This document shows, piece by piece, positions 1 to 5,357 of a stretch of DNA of 5,357 nt. Source of the stretch: Candidatus Helarchaeota archaeon (GTDB taxonomy: Archaea; Asgardarchaeota; Lokiarchaeia; Helarchaeales; JABXJV01). A model generated the notes under the pieces. That model was not told the origin of the DNA, did not search any database, and saw nothing but the letters and a program-made list of their open reading frames with translations. The position numbers and the translations under genes were made by a program. The stretch is taken from assembly GCA_013375355.1 (NCBI GenBank), contig JABXJV010000141.1, positions 1 to 5,357 on the forward strand, given 5' to 3'. Numbering within the stretch: position 1 is the first letter of the stretch; each line of letters starts with the position of its first letter.

Positions 1-653
1 ACAGTTAAAACGATAAACATTTGTAGACCATAAGGTTTATTGTGTTTTTGCATATAGAAACCACGCTGTTGCAAACTGGCAAGAATCTGAACATTAATCG
101 ATTTGATTTCACTGACGGGTTCATCATATCCACATTTAAGAAAAACCATATTACCTTTTTTTGGTTTGAAATGACGAACGGCAAAACCTAACACTGAGCG
201 TTGATTTGATAGAAGAAATTCTTTTAATCCTTGAATTGAAGGTGAAATTTTACTGTTCTCTAAATCTCTCTCATCAATAGTTATATAATCATCTTCTCTT
301 CCAAAGCATAGACGAATCCCTCTAATACGTAAATTTACTCTCTCTCCTAGTACTGATCTTACTTTTTCATTTAGTGGGAATACTTCCTTATCCAATATAG
401 CTCTTTCACCTATGATTTCTTCATATGGTTGCATCTCAAATTCCTTAATAAAATTCTGGACTGGAGCTTCAGAAGAAGAGACATAAATTTTATAATCATG
501 TAAATTTTTCTTAATAATAAATGTGGCTTTGAGATCTGTATCAATAACCGAAAAACTAGTTGTTTTATCTATTTGCGCCCTAAATTCATGTTTATTATAA
601 TCGATTTTACTTAATTTTTCTTCCTCTCTTTCTTTCGTTTTCTTTCTAAACAT
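1..653 (-). CDS. Hypothetical protein, C-terminal part outside the window
   Basis: An open frame runs from an ATG at 653 to the left edge without a stop, giving at least 217 residues. The start is supported by a GGTG at 666-663, nine bases upstream, and by a TATA-like stretch around 700-716. The protein begins with a highly charged Lys/Arg/Glu segment (MFRKKTKEREEEKLSK) that looks disordered. A mixed alpha/beta soluble sequence follows, with no membrane segment and no signal peptide. Basic patches occur near residues 105-115 (VNLRIRGIRLCFGRE) and 158-166. There are only two cysteines, too far apart for a zinc site. I do not recognise a family or any catalytic motif. Codon use and base composition match the neighbours. 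The gene is real by length, start signals and frame integrity; its function is unknown. Confidence 0.8.
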   Translation of the reverse strand, partial: MFRKKTKEREEEKLSKIDYNKHEFRAQIDKTTSFSVIDTDLKATFIIKKNLHDYKIYVSSSEAPVQNFIKEFEMQPYEEIIGERAILDKEVFPLNEKVRSVLGERVNLRIRGIRLCFGREDDYITIDERDLENSKISPSIQGLKEFLLSNQRSVLGFAVRHFKPKKGNMVFLKCGYDEPVSEIKSINVQILASLQQRGFYMQKHNKPYGLQMFIVLT

Positions 654-699
654 TTTATCCTACACCTAGACAAAATTTCACATATTATTACTAAAAATT

Positions 700-716
700 T
701 GATATATATTAAATTT
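700..716 (-). promoter_or_regulatory. Possible TATA-box region for the gene at 653-1
   Basis: Read on the minus strand this is AAATTTAATATATATC, resembling an archaeal BRE/TATA pair. It lies about 47-60 bases before the ATG at 653, so transcription would start near 675-680 and leave a leader of about 25 bases that includes the GGTG site. The region is very AT-rich, so the match could be chance. Confidence 0.3.
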
Positions 717-782
717 ACAAATCCAATAAATATGGTTTTTTTTTCTCAATTAACTTATATCATTCATACTTTATGTAATTAA

Positions 783-820
783 TCGAATTTAATTTTTTAA
801 ATCCATGCAATTAAATTCGA
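783..820. repeat. Perfect 12-bp inverted repeat in the divergent spacer
   Basis: TCGAATTTAATT at 783-794 is the exact reverse complement of AATTAAATTCGA at 809-820, with a 14-base spacer. It lies about 80 bases before the radB-like start and 130 bases before the divergent gene. It could be an operator for a dimeric regulator or a hairpin in a long leader. The rest of the 654-900 spacer shows only AT-rich sequence. Confidence 0.55.
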
Positions 821-900
821 GATAAGATTAAAAGAGATTAGATAAAATAATTTAGGATGAAACTTAACTTTTTAGATTTTTAACAGCATTATATGGAGAT

Positions 901-1611
901 ATGATTATTACTTTGAAAAAACAATATTATCCGACTGGATGTAAACGTATAGATAATTTACTAGGAGGAGGCTTCGAATCACAAATAGTTAATCATATTT
1001 ATGGAGAATCAGGGACCGGTAAATCAATAATTACTCTCCAATGTGCCTATAAAGCTGCATTAAAAGGCTTTACGACTTTTTATATAGATACAGAAAGAGC
1101 ATTTTCGGCAACTAGACTTAACCAAATCGCTCAAGATAATTTTTCTAAAGTTGGAAAGCTAATTTTCGTCTATGCTCCTTTGAATTTTTCCCAACAAATG
1201 AAAATTATTCAAAAGTTGGAGAAATTCATAACGAAGAATGTAAAAATAATAATATTAGATACGATTTCTGCATTATATTCGGCAAGTTATGGAATTAATA
1301 ATCCGAAAAGAAATTATAAACTAAATAAACAACTGAATCATCAAATGGCAGAATTAGTTAGATTAGCAGAAAACTATGATCTAGCCATCATAGTTAATAA
1401 TCAAGTTAGAAGTAGAATTGCTGATAAAGATCCTCGGAAATTGGTTCCATTTAATAGAAATATTTTAGACCATTGGTGCAAAGTTCAATTATTTTTAACA
1501 TTTTCCGAAAAAATGGATATGAAAAAAAGGGAAGCAATCTTAATAAAACATTACAATCAACAAAATGAAAAATCTTGTTCATTTATTATTTCTAATGAGG
1601 GATGTCAATAA
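901..1611 (+). CDS. radB: RadB-like RecA-family ATPase (recombinase paralogue)
   Basis: RadB is an archaeal paralogue of RadA/Rad51 that lacks the N-terminal helix-hairpin-helix domain and is thought to assist or modulate homologous recombination. The 236-residue length fits. Visible in order are the opening PTGCKRIDNLLGGGFE (11-26), Walker A GESGTGKS (35-42), YIDTERAFS with the probable catalytic Glu65 (61-69), Walker B IIILD (116-120), the NQV motif (167-169), and a C-terminal block of the RadB type (KREAILIKHYNQQ). One departure is that the usual Pro-x-Gly-Gly after NQV reads PFNR (183-186), losing both glycines. A GGAG at 895-898 lies only two bases before the ATG, which is unusually tight. 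A TTG at 913 is a possible but less likely start. The methyltransferase gene follows after 37 bases. A KaiC-like ATPase is the alternative, but the C-terminal block argues for RadB. Confidence 0.85.
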   Translation: MIITLKKQYYPTGCKRIDNLLGGGFESQIVNHIYGESGTGKSIITLQCAYKAALKGFTTFYIDTERAFSATRLNQIAQDNFSKVGKLIFVYAPLNFSQQMKIIQKLEKFITKNVKIIILDTISALYSASYGINNPKRNYKLNKQLNHQMAELVRLAENYDLAIIVNNQVRSRIADKDPRKLVPFNRNILDHWCKVQLFLTFSEKMDMKKREAILIKHYNQQNEKSCSFIISNEGCQ

Positions 1612-1648
1612 TAATTGGCCTTTTTAAGATGAACTCAAGGTTGATAAA

Positions 1649-2374
1649 ATGGACCCGGAATCGATGAAACCGTATGGACTGGCTCTTCTTGACTATTTTA
1701 ATGGAGATACTTCATCTAAATTTGTGATTTTTAGAGATGATGGTTTTAAGGATGAATTTAAGATAAATTTCTTTTTTCGTGAGCCCTTAGACTTTTCATC
1801 TATAGAAAAAACTACCTTAGATCTCTGTTATGGTCGAATCCTCGATATTGGTGCAGGAGCTGGCCCTCATAGTATTTTTCTTCAAAATAAAGGATTAAAA
1901 GTATGTGCGATTGATATCTCCCCAGAAGCTTGCGAAGTAATGAAAAAAAGAGGAGTTAAAAATGTGTGTTGTGTTGATGCTTTAGAGTTCAAAGCAGAGC
2001 CCTTTGATACACTTATAATTCTAGGGCGCAGCATTGGACTGGTCGGAACTTTAACTGGGTTGGATTTTTTTTTAGAAGCTGTTCACCGCTTAGTAAAACC
2101 AAGTGGACAAATATTATTGAATTCTTTGGACGTTAGATGTACAAATATACCAATACACATTGCTTACCAAGAAGCAAATAAAAAAGCTGGTCGTTATATT
2201 GGTGAACTTAAAATTCAATTCGAATACAAAGGAAAAAAGGGTCCTTTTTTTAAATTATTACACGTGGATTCGGAAACACTTATTAACCATGCATTTAAAA
2301 AAAGCTGGCGTTGTAAAATCATTCACGAAGAAAAAGACGGCAATTATCTTGCACAATTAACCCCAATACAATAA
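1649..2374 (+). CDS. Class I SAM-dependent methyltransferase
   Basis: A 241-residue Rossmann-fold methyltransferase. It opens with KPYGLALLDYFNGDTS (7-22), a lead-in typical of one small-molecule-type subfamily. SAM-binding motif I is LDIGAGAGP (65-73), the acidic residue binding the ribose is Asp89 (AIDIS), and motif III includes Asp110 (CCVDA). The late strand RLVKPSGQILLNS (147-159) follows. The substrate cannot be read from the sequence. No DNA- or RNA-specific catalytic motif such as NPPY was seen. The ATG at 1649 has AAGG at 1637-1640, eight bases upstream. The 37-base gap behind radB, on the same strand, suggests co-transcription, although a T5 run at 1621-1625 in the gap could reduce read-through. 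The gene ends nine bases before the convergent V4R gene. Confidence 0.85.
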   Translation: MDPESMKPYGLALLDYFNGDTSSKFVIFRDDGFKDEFKINFFFREPLDFSSIEKTTLDLCYGRILDIGAGAGPHSIFLQNKGLKVCAIDISPEACEVMKKRGVKNVCCVDALEFKAEPFDTLIILGRSIGLVGTLTGLDFFLEAVHRLVKPSGQILLNSLDVRCTNIPIHIAYQEANKKAGRYIGELKIQFEYKGKKGPFFKLLHVDSETLINHAFKKSWRCKIIHEEKDGNYLAQLTPIQ

Positions 2375-2383
2375 AAGTTATAA

Positions 2384-2926
2384 TTAAAAAGATTTTTTTA
2401 TAATAAACTCACAGCAATTTCCTCCCATTAGTTCACATTTGTTCTCCATACATGTATATTTTTCCCCTGTTATTTGTTCTGTAACAATTTCAAAAATCCC
2501 TCGAATAATATGACACCATCTATGTGATTTTGGTGAACCAGGTAGAGAAAATGGGGAGTTGAAAATTTGTATTACTTTTTCATTTGGATTATTTTTTTGA
2601 ATAACCCATTTACCGCCAATCCATTCTTGAAAGTTCATAACAAAAGTCGAGAGTTCTGTCATATAAGGAATGAATTTTATTGCTAAATATTTCTTCCCAT
2701 AATGAAACAAAATTTCATTAGTTCCGTAACCCATTACGTTAATCATTGATTCTAATAAGGTATTAAATCTTTCTATTGTTATGGGCTGTGTTTTAGATGG
2801 TTCGACACCTATGAATTCATCTAATTTTGCGATTCTTAAAATAGAATTTAACCCATCAATACCCATAAAGTCATTCAAAGCTTTTATTATAGATGAAAAG
2901 ACAATACCACTTATCTCTTTTTTCAA
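2384..2926 (-). CDS. V4R-domain protein (BchJ/XylR-N/TRAPP-like fold)
   Basis: A 180-residue protein whose C-terminal half matches the V4R (4-vinyl reductase) domain. The signs are WCHIIRGIFEIVTEQ (137-151) with Cys138, then CMENKCELMGGNCCEFII (159-176), which fits the domain's closing pattern C-x3-G-x3-C-x-F (Cys164, Gly168, Cys172, Phe174). Cys159 and Cys171 are additional. V4R domains bind small hydrophobic ligands or metal in several regulators and share their fold with the TRAPP subunit Bet3. The N-terminal half (about 1-100) is helical, as in stand-alone V4R proteins. No DNA-binding domain or membrane segment is visible. The start is a TTG at 2926: the frame is closed by a TAG just upstream, and AGGT at 2937-2934 sits seven bases before it. 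The next ATG, residue 21, would cut the first helix. It lies downstream of the OSTC-like gene on the same strand, across 138 bases. Ligand and role are unknown. Confidence 0.75.
   Translation of the reverse strand: MKKEISGIVFSSIIKALNDFMGIDGLNSILRIAKLDEFIGVEPSKTQPITIERFNTLLESMINVMGYGTNEILFHYGKKYLAIKFIPYMTELSTFVMNFQEWIGGKWVIQKNNPNEKVIQIFNSPFSLPGSPKSHRWCHIIRGIFEIVTEQITGEKYTCMENKCELMGGNCCEFIIKKSF
2386..2400 (+). terminator. Possible T-tract terminator for the radB-methyltransferase pair
   Basis: A run of seven T (2393-2399) begins 19 bases after the methyltransferase stop, matching the U-rich terminators of archaea. It overlaps the last codons of the convergent V4R gene, where it encodes lysines on the other strand, so its sequence may be constrained for that reason instead. 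Confidence 0.35.
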
Positions 2927-3013
2927 AATTAATACCTATTCATATCATTTTTAATATGACATTAAAATCAAAATCAATTAAATTATTTATTAGTTTTCAT
3001 TTCTTTAGATTAC

Positions 3014-3057
3014 AGAAAAAAGGATAATTAATAACGAATTAGAAAAAATTTGTTATT
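3014..3057 (-). terminator. Hairpin and T-tract after the OSTC-like gene
   Basis: Seven bases past the OSTC-like stop there is an 11-bp inverted repeat, with arms at 3057-3047 and 3040-3030 and a 6-base loop. On the minus strand it contains one A-C mismatch. A T6 run follows it (plus-strand A6 within 3016-3021). This would end the OSTC-like transcript and imply a separate promoter for the V4R gene. The mismatch becomes a G-U pair only in plus-strand RNA, which weakens the assignment. Confidence 0.4.
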
Positions 3058-3064
3058 CTGAAAA

Positions 3065-3634
3065 TTAAACATCAGCAGAATATAATTTTACACCTTTTTG
3101 GGCAATAAAATATTCAATGAGGACAAATGAAAGAAGTATTAAAGCAATTCCAACAGCTAGATAAGAATAAGCGGACTTTGGTCGATAAAAATGTCTTGTC
3201 GATTGATAAATAAAAAGCACACCACAAGCTCCGATCAAAACGACAATTGAAGCTACTACACCTTCAATGGCAAATTGTTCATGTAAATCTGCCCAGAAGA
3301 ATACAGGAATGATTCTTTTAGTCTGATCTTCTTGTTTGTAATTTAGCGGAATTGTATTTCGCGTTATATCATACAGGAGACCAGCAACTATAAAAGCAAA
3401 GAATATGAAAAAAATTCCAAAAACTACATTCCTACTTGGAACTGGAATTTTAGGGGCTTTTGGTATTTGAATTTTAATTTTAGGTTTACGAATTAATCGC
3501 TCTGGCCACGGTAAATTTTGTTGATACCATGATTTTTTTCCTAAACTTTTTAAAGATCGTTTAAATCCCTTTTTTTCTTCAACTTCTTTCTTTGATTTTG
3601 ATTTGCTGATATTGGGCTTTTTCTTCTTCTCCAT
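3065..3634 (-). CDS. OSTC / OST3-OST6-like membrane protein (oligosaccharyltransferase subunit homologue)
   Basis: A 189-residue membrane protein with a Lys/Arg-rich, probably cytosolic tail (1-66) and three hydrophobic segments (about 70-88, 124-144 and 156-177). The membrane part recalls eukaryotic OSTC and the C-terminal membrane domain of OST3/OST6. PKIKIQIPKAPKIPVPS (51-67) precedes TM1, TM1 ends in GLLYD (85-89), where human OSTC has GIIYD, and QFAIEGVVAS opens TM2 (120-129), where OSTC has QYIMEGLASS. The spacing of the segments also agrees. In eukaryotes OSTC links the STT3A oligosaccharyltransferase to the translocon. The thioredoxin domain of OST3/OST6 is absent. I infer a role as an accessory subunit of an archaeal AglB/STT3-type N-glycosylation enzyme; no catalytic subunit lies in the window. 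The ATG at 3634 has a GGAG at 3649-3646. The family comparison is from memory, not from an alignment run. Confidence 0.75.
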   Translation of the reverse strand: MEKKKKPNISKSKSKKEVEEKKGFKRSLKSLGKKSWYQQNLPWPERLIRKPKIKIQIPKAPKIPVPSRNVVFGIFFIFFAFIVAGLLYDITRNTIPLNYKQEDQTKRIIPVFFWADLHEQFAIEGVVASIVVLIGACGVLFIYQSTRHFYRPKSAYSYLAVGIALILLSFVLIEYFIAQKGVKLYSADV

Positions 3635-3787
3635 TTAATTGATAGCTCCATAGAAAATTCGTTACTGTCACTTTAATGCTCATTTTTATTAAATTTATTA
3701 CTAAAAAGATATGGTAAAATGTAATATTTCAAACTTATGGTATAAGAAAGTAGTTCAAAATTTTTGATTTAATTAGAATCATAATTG

Positions 3788-3797
3788 TATATTTATT
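3788..3797 (+). promoter_or_regulatory. Possible TATA box for galactokinase
   Basis: TATATTTATT lies 28 bases before the TTG at 3825. Archaeal spacing would place the transcription start near 3817-3820, giving an almost leaderless message for a TTG 3825 or GTG 3834 start. This would fit the lack of any clear ribosome binding site there. The 190-base divergent spacer (3635-3824) is AT-rich throughout, and for the opposite gene it holds only a weak candidate near 3684-3700. Confidence 0.35.
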
Positions 3798-3824
3798 AAA
3801 AAATGACGAATATAAGAAGATATT

Positions 3825-5021
3825 TTGCCTAATGTGTGGCTGAAATTGAAAATTAAAGACAGAATCAATAAAATAATTGCAAAGCTTCAAGAAATAGAGA
3901 AAATAGATAAGCGAAATATGAAAATTGCAATTGCGCCAGGCAGAATTAATTTGATAGGTGAACATACAGATTATAATGAAGGATTTGTTCTTCCTTGCGC
4001 AGTTTCTAGAGAAAATATTATGGCTGCGATTCCTTCTGAAACTCAAAAAATAAAGGTACATTCATTAAATTATAACGAATTTTTACAATTTTCACTAGAT
4101 GACATGGGGCTTACTGGGAAATGGATAGATTACTTAAAAGGTGTTGTTTTTTATCTAAAAGAATATGGTTATAAAATCAATGGTATGACGGGAGTTCTTC
4201 ATAGTACTGTTCCTATTGGAGGAGGATTAAGTTCATCTGCTGCATTAGAAGTAGTTTCAGCGTATATTTTCAATTTATTATATAATTTAAAAATTGATTA
4301 TAAAGAATTGGCTTTAATCTGTTATAAAGCAGAACGAAATTTTATGAATATTTCATGTGGAATTATGGATCAATTCATTTCCTCTCTTGGAAAAGAAAAT
4401 TGCTTCCTTTTTCTTGATTGTCGTCCCCCTTATAGCTATGAACAAATTGAATTGCCAAGAGAAGATGTAAAAATGGTAATTATGGATACTAAAATACATC
4501 GTGCCGCAAGTAAAGTTGTAAATACTAGAAGAGAAGAATGCTATAAAGGTGTGGAAATAATTCGAAATAAAACAGGACTAAATATTAAATCTTTAAGAGA
4601 TCTTTCAATAGAAAAATTTGAAAAATTCAAAAATTTTTTACCTCAACTAATAAGAAAAAGATGTGAACATGTTATTAATGAAAATCAAAGAGTTCTGGAT
4701 GCGAAAGAAGCGATTAAGATTGGAGATTTTAAACTTTTAGGTAAATTAATGTACGAATCTCATAATAGTTTAGATACATTATATGAGGTAACCTGTAAAG
4801 AATTAAATACTATGGTTCAAATTGCTAAAGATATAGATGGAGTCATTGGGGCTAGAATGACTGGAGCAGGATTAGGTGGATGTGTATGTTGTATATGTTA
4901 TGATTGGGCAATAGAAGAGTTAATTAATAAAGCAAAAAATGAGTATGAAAAAAAATATGAAATTAAACCCGATATATATTCGTGTAACATAAGTGATGGC
5001 GTGAAAGAATTAAAAATATAG
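3825..5021 (+). CDS. galK: Galactokinase (GHMP kinase family)
   Basis: Phosphorylates galactose to galactose-1-phosphate with ATP, the first committed step of the Leloir pathway, in the cytosol. With the TTG start the protein has 398 residues. The galactokinase signature GRINLIGEHTDY (39-50) contains sugar-contacting Glu45, His46 and Asp49. Arg39 and Asp182 (CGIMDQF, 178-184) are the expected catalytic pair. The GHMP phosphate-binding loop is PIGGGLSSSAALE (130-142) and the third motif is RMTGAGLGGC (344-353). The block MYESHNSLDTLYEV (309-322) is also typical. The start is uncertain. TTG 3825 is the first possible codon after the in-frame TAA at 3813, and GTG 3834 is close by. ATG 3918 (residue 32) would place the signature near the N-terminus, as in short archaeal galactokinases, giving 367 residues. 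An unusual Cys cluster, GGCVCCICYD (351-360), lies in the C-terminal part. No galT or galE is in the window. A related sugar kinase such as N-acetylgalactosamine kinase cannot be fully excluded. Confidence 0.92.
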   Translation: MPNVWLKLKIKDRINKIIAKLQEIEKIDKRNMKIAIAPGRINLIGEHTDYNEGFVLPCAVSRENIMAAIPSETQKIKVHSLNYNEFLQFSLDDMGLTGKWIDYLKGVVFYLKEYGYKINGMTGVLHSTVPIGGGLSSSAALEVVSAYIFNLLYNLKIDYKELALICYKAERNFMNISCGIMDQFISSLGKENCFLFLDCRPPYSYEQIELPREDVKMVIMDTKIHRAASKVVNTRREECYKGVEIIRNKTGLNIKSLRDLSIEKFEKFKNFLPQLIRKRCEHVINENQRVLDAKEAIKIGDFKLLGKLMYESHNSLDTLYEVTCKELNTMVQIAKDIDGVIGARMTGAGLGGCVCCICYDWAIEELINKAKNEYEKKYEIKPDIYSCNISDGVKELKI

Positions 5022-5094
5022 AAAAATGATTATTGTATTAAAATAAAATTGATTTTTCGATGTAAAATTATATTATTTAAATATCATTGAACTA

Positions 5095-5113
5095 CCCCCC
5101 CTAAAGGGAGGGG
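5095..5113 (-). ncRNA. Right-end hairpin, likely 3' part of a TnpB omega RNA
   Basis: On the minus strand CCCCTCCC, TTTA and GGGGGGG form a 7-bp stem with a 4-base loop. The strand matters: the minus-strand RNA closes every pair using one U-G wobble, while the plus strand has a C-A mismatch. This favours a functional hairpin in the transcript running from tnpB. In IS605 elements the right end overlapping the tnpB 3' end gives the omega RNA scaffold, and the flanking sequence gives the guide. Only the terminal hairpin is defined here; the 5' limit of the RNA cannot be read. Confidence 0.55.
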
Positions 5114-5124
5114 ATTCATAGTCC

Positions 5125-5357
5125 CTAATGCCCTACAAGGACGCTAGACACTATCGGATGGTTCTCCACCCGCAGATTTAAACTATTATCTTGAAAATAT
5201 TTATTGAGAATTTGGATACTTCCCACAACATCCCTGTCTTGTACATAACCGCATTGTTTACACCTAAAGGTGCGGTCATTCGGTTTAACTTTTTTTCCGC
5301 AAACAGGACAAATTGAAGAAGTACCTCGTTCATTAATTTGTGCAAATTCGATACCGA
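5125..5357 (-). CDS. tnpB: TnpB (RNA-guided nuclease of IS200/IS605), C-terminal fragment
   Basis: The last 76 residues of a TnpB read in the frame starting at 5355 and ending at a TAG at 5127-5125; the rest lies past the right edge. TnpB is an omega-RNA-guided DNA endonuclease related to Cas12. Seen here are TSSICPVCG (12-20) and FRCKQCGYVQDRD (30-42), a CX2C-X12-CX2C zinc ribbon (Cys16, Cys19, Cys32, Cys35). The DRDVVGSIQIL block (40-50) carries the third catalytic aspartate of the RuvC site. The tail after residue 58 (LNLRVENHPIVSS) is not one I recognise. An adjacent frame reads SAGGEPSDSV and stops at 5144, so a small frameshift near the 3' end is possible. Whether the full protein is intact cannot be judged from this window. 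Confidence 0.88.
   Translation of the reverse strand, partial: GIEFAQINERGTSSICPVCGKKVKPNDRTFRCKQCGYVQDRDVVGSIQILNKYFQDNSLNLRVENHPIVSSVLVGH

Follow-up and report, generated by a model that had tools for sequence, protein, structure and literature searches.

A putative OSTC-type oligosaccharyltransferase subunit encoded in a Helarchaeota contig and across the Asgard archaea

A conserved gene in the Helarchaeota window

The DNA analysed here (hereafter, the window) is a stretch of 5,357 nucleotides, positions 1 to 5,357 of contig JABXJV010000141.1 from Candidatus Helarchaeota archaeon. This work concerns an open reading frame (ORF) on its minus strand, 3065–3634, which runs from an ATG at 3634 to a stop codon at 3065–3067 and encodes a 189-residue protein. 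A preliminary description had named this protein a prokaryotic homologue of the oligosaccharyltransferase (OST) subunits OSTC / OST3-OST6. OSTC is an accessory subunit assisting the enzyme with which eukaryotes link sugars to proteins, and much of the secretion and glycosylation machinery of eukaryotes is also present in Asgard archaea.

Positions 1–5094 of the window were collinear with the Helarchaeota metagenome-assembled genome (MAG) LW55_61 (locus L001) at a nucleotide identity of 84.6%, and the two copies of the gene differed at 22, 6 and 62 first, second and third codon positions, respectively, with a dN of 0.067 and a dS of 0.83. Ten homologues of the 189-residue protein were 63–99% identical to it, nine of them covering at least 91% of its length and one covering 63%; the 99% homologue possibly comes from the same organism as the window. 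Since these homologues and the codon-position pattern argue for a real gene rather than a chance ORF, we conclude that ORF 3065–3634 is a conserved protein-coding gene of an Asgard archaeon under purifying selection (Table 1). In line with the Asgard origin guessed in the preliminary description, all organism-named relatives of the protein were Asgard, as were the organism-named ones among the best 120 of the 1823 proteins retrieved in a search with a three-row alignment. No NCBIfam model matched the protein at E<=0.001, and the window held no Rfam family at gathering scores and no tRNA.

Table 1. Positions in the window of the putative OSTC-type gene and of the segments of its predicted product (TM, transmembrane segment).
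Feature	Positions	Strand	Basis
Putative OSTC-type (PF04756) subunit gene, 189 residues plus stop	3065..3634	minus	Family matches and purifying selection
Basic, Pro/Lys-rich N-terminal lead-in, residues 1–66, predicted cytosolic	3437..3634	minus	Charge count, positive-inside inference
TM1, residues 69–90, closing with G85-x-x-Y88-D89	3365..3430	minus	Hydropathy; model helix 68–93
Extracellular loop (predicted), residues 91–118	3281..3364	minus	Hydropathy, alignment columns
TM2, residues 119–146, with Q120-x3-E124-G125-x2-A-S129	3197..3280	minus	Hydropathy, model, alignment
TM3, residues 153–180, last residue K180	3095..3178	minus	Hydropathy, model, alignment

Family assignment and distribution in the phylum

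The preliminary description had staked its assignment on a match to the Pfam family PF04756 (OST3_OST6). Such a match was obtained by a narrow margin, with 27.2 bits against a curated cut-off of 27 (E=3.2e-6), and spanned profile positions 176–284 of 294, the thioredoxin part being excluded. When the 177,635 distinct sequences of the PDB were searched with phmmer, two OSTC sequences were the only matches (E=4.1e-8 and 5.7e-5), with no other up to E=10. A profile built from 41 Asgard sequences (A2; the window protein, five close relatives and 35 loci) matched human OSTC in the PDB at E=5e-21 (77.9 bits) and a shorter OSTC chain at 2.2e-17, followed by MAGT1 at E=1e-4 (24.8 bits) and yeast OST3 at E=0.02 (17.4 bits). 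Two unrelated chains came next at 0.04 and 0.2, so that the yeast OST3 match is weak when taken alone.

The preference for OSTC was also seen in the alignment, where BLOSUM62 similarity to the Asgard rows, averaged within each column and summed over 103 columns, was 99 for OSTC, 33 for MAGT1 and 42 for OST3. The gap in identity was small: in 56 well-conserved columns, the Asgard majority residue was matched 18 times by OSTC, 15 times by MAGT1 and 13 times by OST3. Eight columns matched OSTC alone, including Y88, G125 and S129, the latter two being replaced by T and L/V in MAGT1/OST3; another 11 matched MAGT1 and/or OST3 and not OSTC, three of them matching both.

The profile A2 matched 206 of the 227 genomes of the phylum at E<=1e-5, in a search that included no control genomes. 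PF04756 matched 214 of the 227 genomes at E<=0.001, 171 of them above the cut-off, and also 5 of 14 control genomes, one above the cut-off; since this family also matches thioredoxins, its counts alone were not used for distribution. For further comparisons, 92 loci of the membrane (TM) type were assembled from L001 and L003, which are the same gene, 30 loci of the PF04756 search and 60 picked among the matches listed, and all 92 were recovered by one iterated hidden Markov model. A Pfam scan of the window protein together with 91 distinct Asgard genes found PF04756 in 92/92 (E<=0.01, best E 4.5e-14) and a thioredoxin family in 0/92 at E<=0.01, while the few other Pfam matches were weak, with 7tm_3 the most frequent, in seven proteins. 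Several genomes had more than one A2 match, for example two in G110, G111, G117, G119 and G125 and three in G032.

Taken together, PF04756 above its cut-off, PDB matches by phmmer confined to OSTC, and the A2 score support the homology to OSTC/OST3-OST6 proposed in the preliminary description. The double name can be narrowed: the hallmark of OST3/OST6, a thioredoxin domain with four membrane spans, was not found, the protein having three spans and no thioredoxin match. The best reading of the sequences is thus an Asgard family with OSTC architecture and OSTC-like sequence, for which OSTC-type appears the sharper designation.

We also considered whether the thioredoxin half of OST3 might occur as a separate membrane-anchored Asgard protein. 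This candidate was rejected, as the 11 thioredoxin-type loci examined encode ordinary thioredoxins and a hydrophobic stretch was seen only in L135, within an upstream ORF extension. A further region retrieved with them, L142, was an STT3 locus and was left out of this comparison.

Protein architecture and predicted topology

Hydropathy indicated the three membrane segments that had been claimed for the protein, with the approximate limits given in Table 1, and both motifs lay where they had been placed, G85-L-L-Y88-D89 at the end of TM1 and Q120-F-A-I-E124-G125-V-V-A-S129 at the start of TM2. The protein likewise lacks an OST3/OST6 thioredoxin domain, as had been stated. The ‘basic 66-residue tail’ of the preliminary description is indeed basic (22 K/R vs. 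5 D/E) and 66 residues long, but it is N-terminal and identical with the ‘Pro/Lys-rich lead-in’ of the same text. Further, residues 48–66 align with the lead-in of human OSTC, residue 48 of the window protein being the first one aligned, so that only about 47 N-terminal residues are extra. With this basic N-terminal segment, a charge of +3 on the loop between TM2 and TM3 and a neutral outer loop, the positive-inside rule would place the N-terminus in the cytosol and the C-terminus outside.

Three spans were scored by hydropathy in 90 of the 92 Asgard loci, the N-termini of the remaining two being overextended by the ORF rule. A mostly basic lead-in of variable length was general among these loci, with a median of 58 residues before the first hydrophobic window and a median net charge of +8 (range −2 to +19), and is therefore not peculiar to the window gene. 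In an alignment of 93 Asgard rows, which holds one gene twice (L001 and L003), G85, E124 and K180 were invariant (93/93), while the D of ‘YD’ was present in only 13/93. The stretch enclosed by Y88 and E124 comprised 35 residues in Helarchaeota, L063, L078 and human OSTC, compared to 31 in MAGT1 and OST3 and 29–32 in the remaining Asgard rows; the common length may reflect either shared history or convergence.

A structure model obtained with AlphaFold2 from a 107-row alignment (pLDDT 70.1, pTM 0.49) contained helices at residues 68–93, 117–147 and 152–180; an earlier model, for which 11 close sequences had been used, was of low quality (pLDDT 60.6, pTM 0.34) and was set aside. When the model was compared to 350,542 PDB chains with Foldseek, the top four matches came from OSTC entries, as identified via the entry list of the A2 profile search, with a probability of 1.00, E-values of 4.1e-3 to 6.1e-3, TM-scores by target of 0.48–0.61, an rmsd of 6.3–11.6 Å and around 20% identity in the structural alignments. 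MAGT1 ranked seventh (E=2.0), and no PDB match reached E<=0.001. With VIA-align, OSTC scored 8.4, MAGT1 8.1 and an unrelated designed protein 7.9, so that OSTC and MAGT1 were not separated. The model comparison is in line with a superposition on OSTC and falls short of proof.

Genomic association with STT3

The preliminary description had suggested a search for AglB/STT3 and ribophorin genes, and both were found in the genome of the nearest relative (G001), with E=3e-44 for STT3 and E=1.2e-6 for ribophorin I. Among the five genomes examined first, STT3 was present in all five and ribophorin I in three. Ost5 exceeded its cut-off in three of the five, the Helarchaeota genome not among them, and was not found in G001 at E<=0.01; OST48_N matched none of the five, but no positive control matched either, so that its absence is not established. 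Across the phylum, STT3 matches were detected in 200 of the 227 genomes at E<=1e-20, with open frames of approximately 450 to 1650 residues. The Helarchaeota STT3 ORF (L122:13739-18607) encodes 1623 residues.

Linkage of the two genes was counted among the matches listed, where both were placed in 106 genomes; some genes, such as that of G184, went uncounted. The OSTC-type gene and STT3 shared a contig in 38 of these 106 genomes and lay within 20 kb of each other in 35, among them the nearest relative identified, at 7.4 kb. The close linkages were concentrated in one block of genomes (G179–G227; 32/36) and numbered 3/70 in the others (G001, G009 and G174). As contigs were often short, missing linkage carries little weight; in G087, G108 and G122, the two genes share a contig and lie 0.4–4 Mb apart. 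PF04756 matches of the thioredoxin type served as a control: of 38 among the matches listed, 24 were in STT3-listed genomes, and none of these (0/24) lay within 20 kb of STT3.

STT3 of the nearest relative starts around 6.8 kb from the OSTC-type gene, and the interval encodes galactokinase, a small membrane protein, topoisomerase IA, and MptE-like and NAD-kinase-like proteins. By collinearity, the corresponding STT3 region of the present genome would lie just to the right of the window, beyond a TnpB remnant. Genes for topoisomerase, an MptE-like protein, a RadB/Rad51-like ATPase, glycine-cleavage proteins and eIF2-alpha recurred as neighbours in eight loci, where ten proteins were identified and the others assigned by eye. 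With such neighbours recurring near the OSTC-type gene, part of the linkage to STT3 reflects an ancient gene order held in common rather than an operon.

Relationship to eukaryotic OSTC and OST3/OST6

To place the Asgard family relative to the eukaryotic branches, we analysed an unrooted tree in which 44 Asgard rows, one of them the window protein, were combined with three eukaryotic ones (OSTC, MAGT1 and OST3). A grouping of the window protein with OSTC (65/63) was marked as two long branches coming together and discarded. Compared to strict OSTC orthology, descent from a single gene that preceded the duplication into OSTC and OST3/OST6, of which the Asgard gene would be a co-orthologue, appears to fit best, given that some conserved residues of the Asgard family recur in every one of the eukaryotic branches. 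A eukaryotic clade of OSTC, MAGT1 and OST3 was not rejected in the approximately unbiased (AU) test (p=0.379).

The competing explanation holds that the Asgard family and OSTC are strict orthologues, OSTC and OST3/6 having already split before Asgard archaea and eukaryotes parted. The profile and similarity scores, which prefer OSTC over OST3/6, speak for it, as does the unrooted tree, in which MAGT1 and OST3 were separated from the Asgard rows and OSTC at 100/99. We nevertheless consider it unlikely: all eukaryotic branches are long (OSTC 3.07, MAGT1 2.02, OST3 1.37), the eukaryotic clade survives the AU test, the Asgard majority residues at columns 92, 103 and 121 (window numbering) are common to MAGT1 and OST3 and not to OSTC, and no thioredoxin-fused OST3 was present among the matches listed for the phylum.

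The homologue of Asgard archaea bears the name OST3/6 in the literature (PMC11417166, PMC10307638), and Pfam places OSTC and OST3/6 together in PF04756, both of which would suit an OST3/OST6 protein reduced in Asgard archaea by loss of the thioredoxin domain. Such a reduction seems improbable given that, among the PF04756 matches listed, none extends from the thioredoxin part beyond profile position 180, that the TM-type proteins scanned had no thioredoxin family, and that the 11 thioredoxin-type loci examined encode ordinary thioredoxins, their sole hydrophobic stretch falling in an upstream ORF extension; the phmmer and A2 scores also prefer OSTC. A membrane protein resembling a Mg2+ transporter, with no tie to glycosylation, is suggested only by the Pfam label ‘transporter family’ and the name of MAGT1, and is very improbable in view of an A2 profile that lies nearer to OSTC than to MAGT1 and of the gene linkage to STT3. 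Finally, a generic three-helix membrane protein matching the profile by chance would agree with the borderline Pfam score and the weak structural statistics of Foldseek and VIA-align, but can practically be dismissed in the face of the A2 score for OSTC, PF04756 in every relative scanned, four top PDB structures that are all OSTC entries, matches throughout the phylum and the STT3 linkage.

Proposed role and evolution

OSTC sits between STT3A and Sec61 and is described as required for channel association and co-translational glycosylation, not for catalysis, in a review that also terms it vertebrate-only (PMC6929149); its luminal hairpin touches the Sec61 plug (PMC9892003). In yeast Ost3, transmembrane helix (TMH) 2 contributes, together with Stt3, to the groove for the lipid-linked oligosaccharide, whereas docking places TMH3-4 in contact with Sec61 (PMC7226087). 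In our mapping, Ost3 TMH2 would be the counterpart of Asgard TM1.

Beyond the homology, architecture, distribution and STT3 linkage established above, we infer the topology of the protein, its contacts with STT3 and Sec61, a co-translational role and an order of evolution. The Asgard protein is quite probably a non-catalytic, three-span OST subunit of OSTC architecture that sits on STT3, turned toward Sec61, that has its basic N-terminus in the cytosol, and that most probably derives from a single gene predating the duplication. By analogy with OSTC/OST3, TM1 would pack on STT3/AglB next to the lipid-linked-oligosaccharide groove and complete the donor groove, while TM2, TM3 and the outer loop would be oriented toward the Sec61/SecY channel. 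Such a subunit would keep the glycosyltransferase near the nascent chain and thereby allow co-translational N-glycosylation at the cell membrane; the N-terminal tail may add an electrostatic contact with the membrane, the ribosome or the channel.

In eukaryotes, this gene would later have given rise to OSTC and, through addition of a thioredoxin-TM1 unit, to OST3/OST6. We give an even chance to the reading in which the ancestral form is the OSTC type facing the translocon, with an OST lacking a redox domain tethered at the Sec channel before eukaryotes arose and OST3/OST6 made later from a thioredoxin-plus-helix unit and a duplicated OSTC. If so, OSTC would represent the older of the two branches and would have disappeared from lineages such as yeast. 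If the Asgard accessory subunit is OSTC-like and its gene tends to lie near STT3, glycosylation beside the translocon would predate the redox-active OST3/6 subunit, and the growth order of the OST complex would become testable with more eukaryotic sequences and one structure of an archaeal complex.

Comparison with known proteins and published work

Human OSTC (DC2; STT3A/OST-A complex, PDB 6s7o_H) was the best PDB match of the window protein by sequence and the first by Foldseek. Both have three spans, no thioredoxin domain, a Pro/Lys lead-in, G-x-x-YD, E-G at the start of TM2, a 35-residue outer loop and a lysine ending TM3. The window protein differs in its extra basic N-terminal residues and in the low identity of the structural alignments. 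Yeast OST3/OST6 and human MAGT1/TUSC3 share the homologous three-span membrane part, whereas the window protein has neither their thioredoxin domain nor their extra first span and scores much lower with them. The catalytic partner proposed for the window protein is an STT3/AglB; archaeal AglB, in contrast, is described as working as a single subunit, with no accessory protein of this kind (PMC7226087).

Asgard homologues of OST3, STT3 and ribophorin have been reported (PMC8813620, PMC10307638, PMC8993221), as have other OST subunits in Asgard archaea (PMC10307638), and the core of the OST complex has been tied to this group (PMC12338589). An earlier study described accessory subunits as lacking archaeal homologues by BLASTp, with HMM searches giving few sequences of unrelated function (PMC4973528). 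The preliminary description was thus correct that OST-subunit homologues had been reported from Asgard archaea, but overstated the importance of the present one, since Asgard OST3/6 homologues are already published (PMC10307638, PMC11417166, PMC8813620). When expressed in HeLa cells, OST3/6 of Prometheoarchaeum syntrophicum MK-D1 co-localised with an endoplasmic reticulum marker, and the cytosolic domain of MK-D1 OST1 bound ribosomes (PMC11417166). The ‘OST3/6’ of MK-D1 and other members of the same phylum, which share the family name (PMC11417166, PMC10307638, PMC8813620), were published as OST3/6 (Tusc3), and the passages concerned make no mention of OSTC or of an absent thioredoxin domain; neither ‘thioredoxin’ nor ‘OSTC’ occurs in the main text of PMC11417166. 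The MK-D1 protein very probably belongs to the same gene family as the window gene. Our literature search, limited to papers outside subscription, found none assigning the Asgard homologue to OSTC, which is no proof that such an assignment is unpublished. While Asgard OST3/6 homologues are already known, the phylum-wide OSTC architecture and the STT3 linkage are possibly new.

Other features of the window

Directly downstream of the OSTC-type gene and on the same strand, positions 2384–2926 encode a V4R-domain protein, an order common to L001. A RadB-like RecA-family ATPase is encoded at 901–1611 (TIGR02237, 173 bits vs. a cut-off of 172.4), and in L120 and L121, too, the OSTC-type gene has RecA/Rad51-type ATPases in its neighbourhood. 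Positions 3–653 hold part of a conserved protein of 366 residues in L122; the full-length copy had no Pfam match at E<=1e-5, NCBIfam gave none at E<=0.001, and the Pfam matches of the window part were weak (0.048 and 0.16).

Collinearity with L001 ends at position 5094, and beyond this point the minus strand (5125–5355) encodes the C-terminus of a TnpB-type RNA-guided nuclease. Since collinearity breaks at 5094 and the TnpB end lies past the break, the remaining 5095–5357 probably represent a mobile-element insertion. The Helarchaeota genome also contains, at G001:C5:1040414 (L004), a frame that stays open for 14,439 residues.
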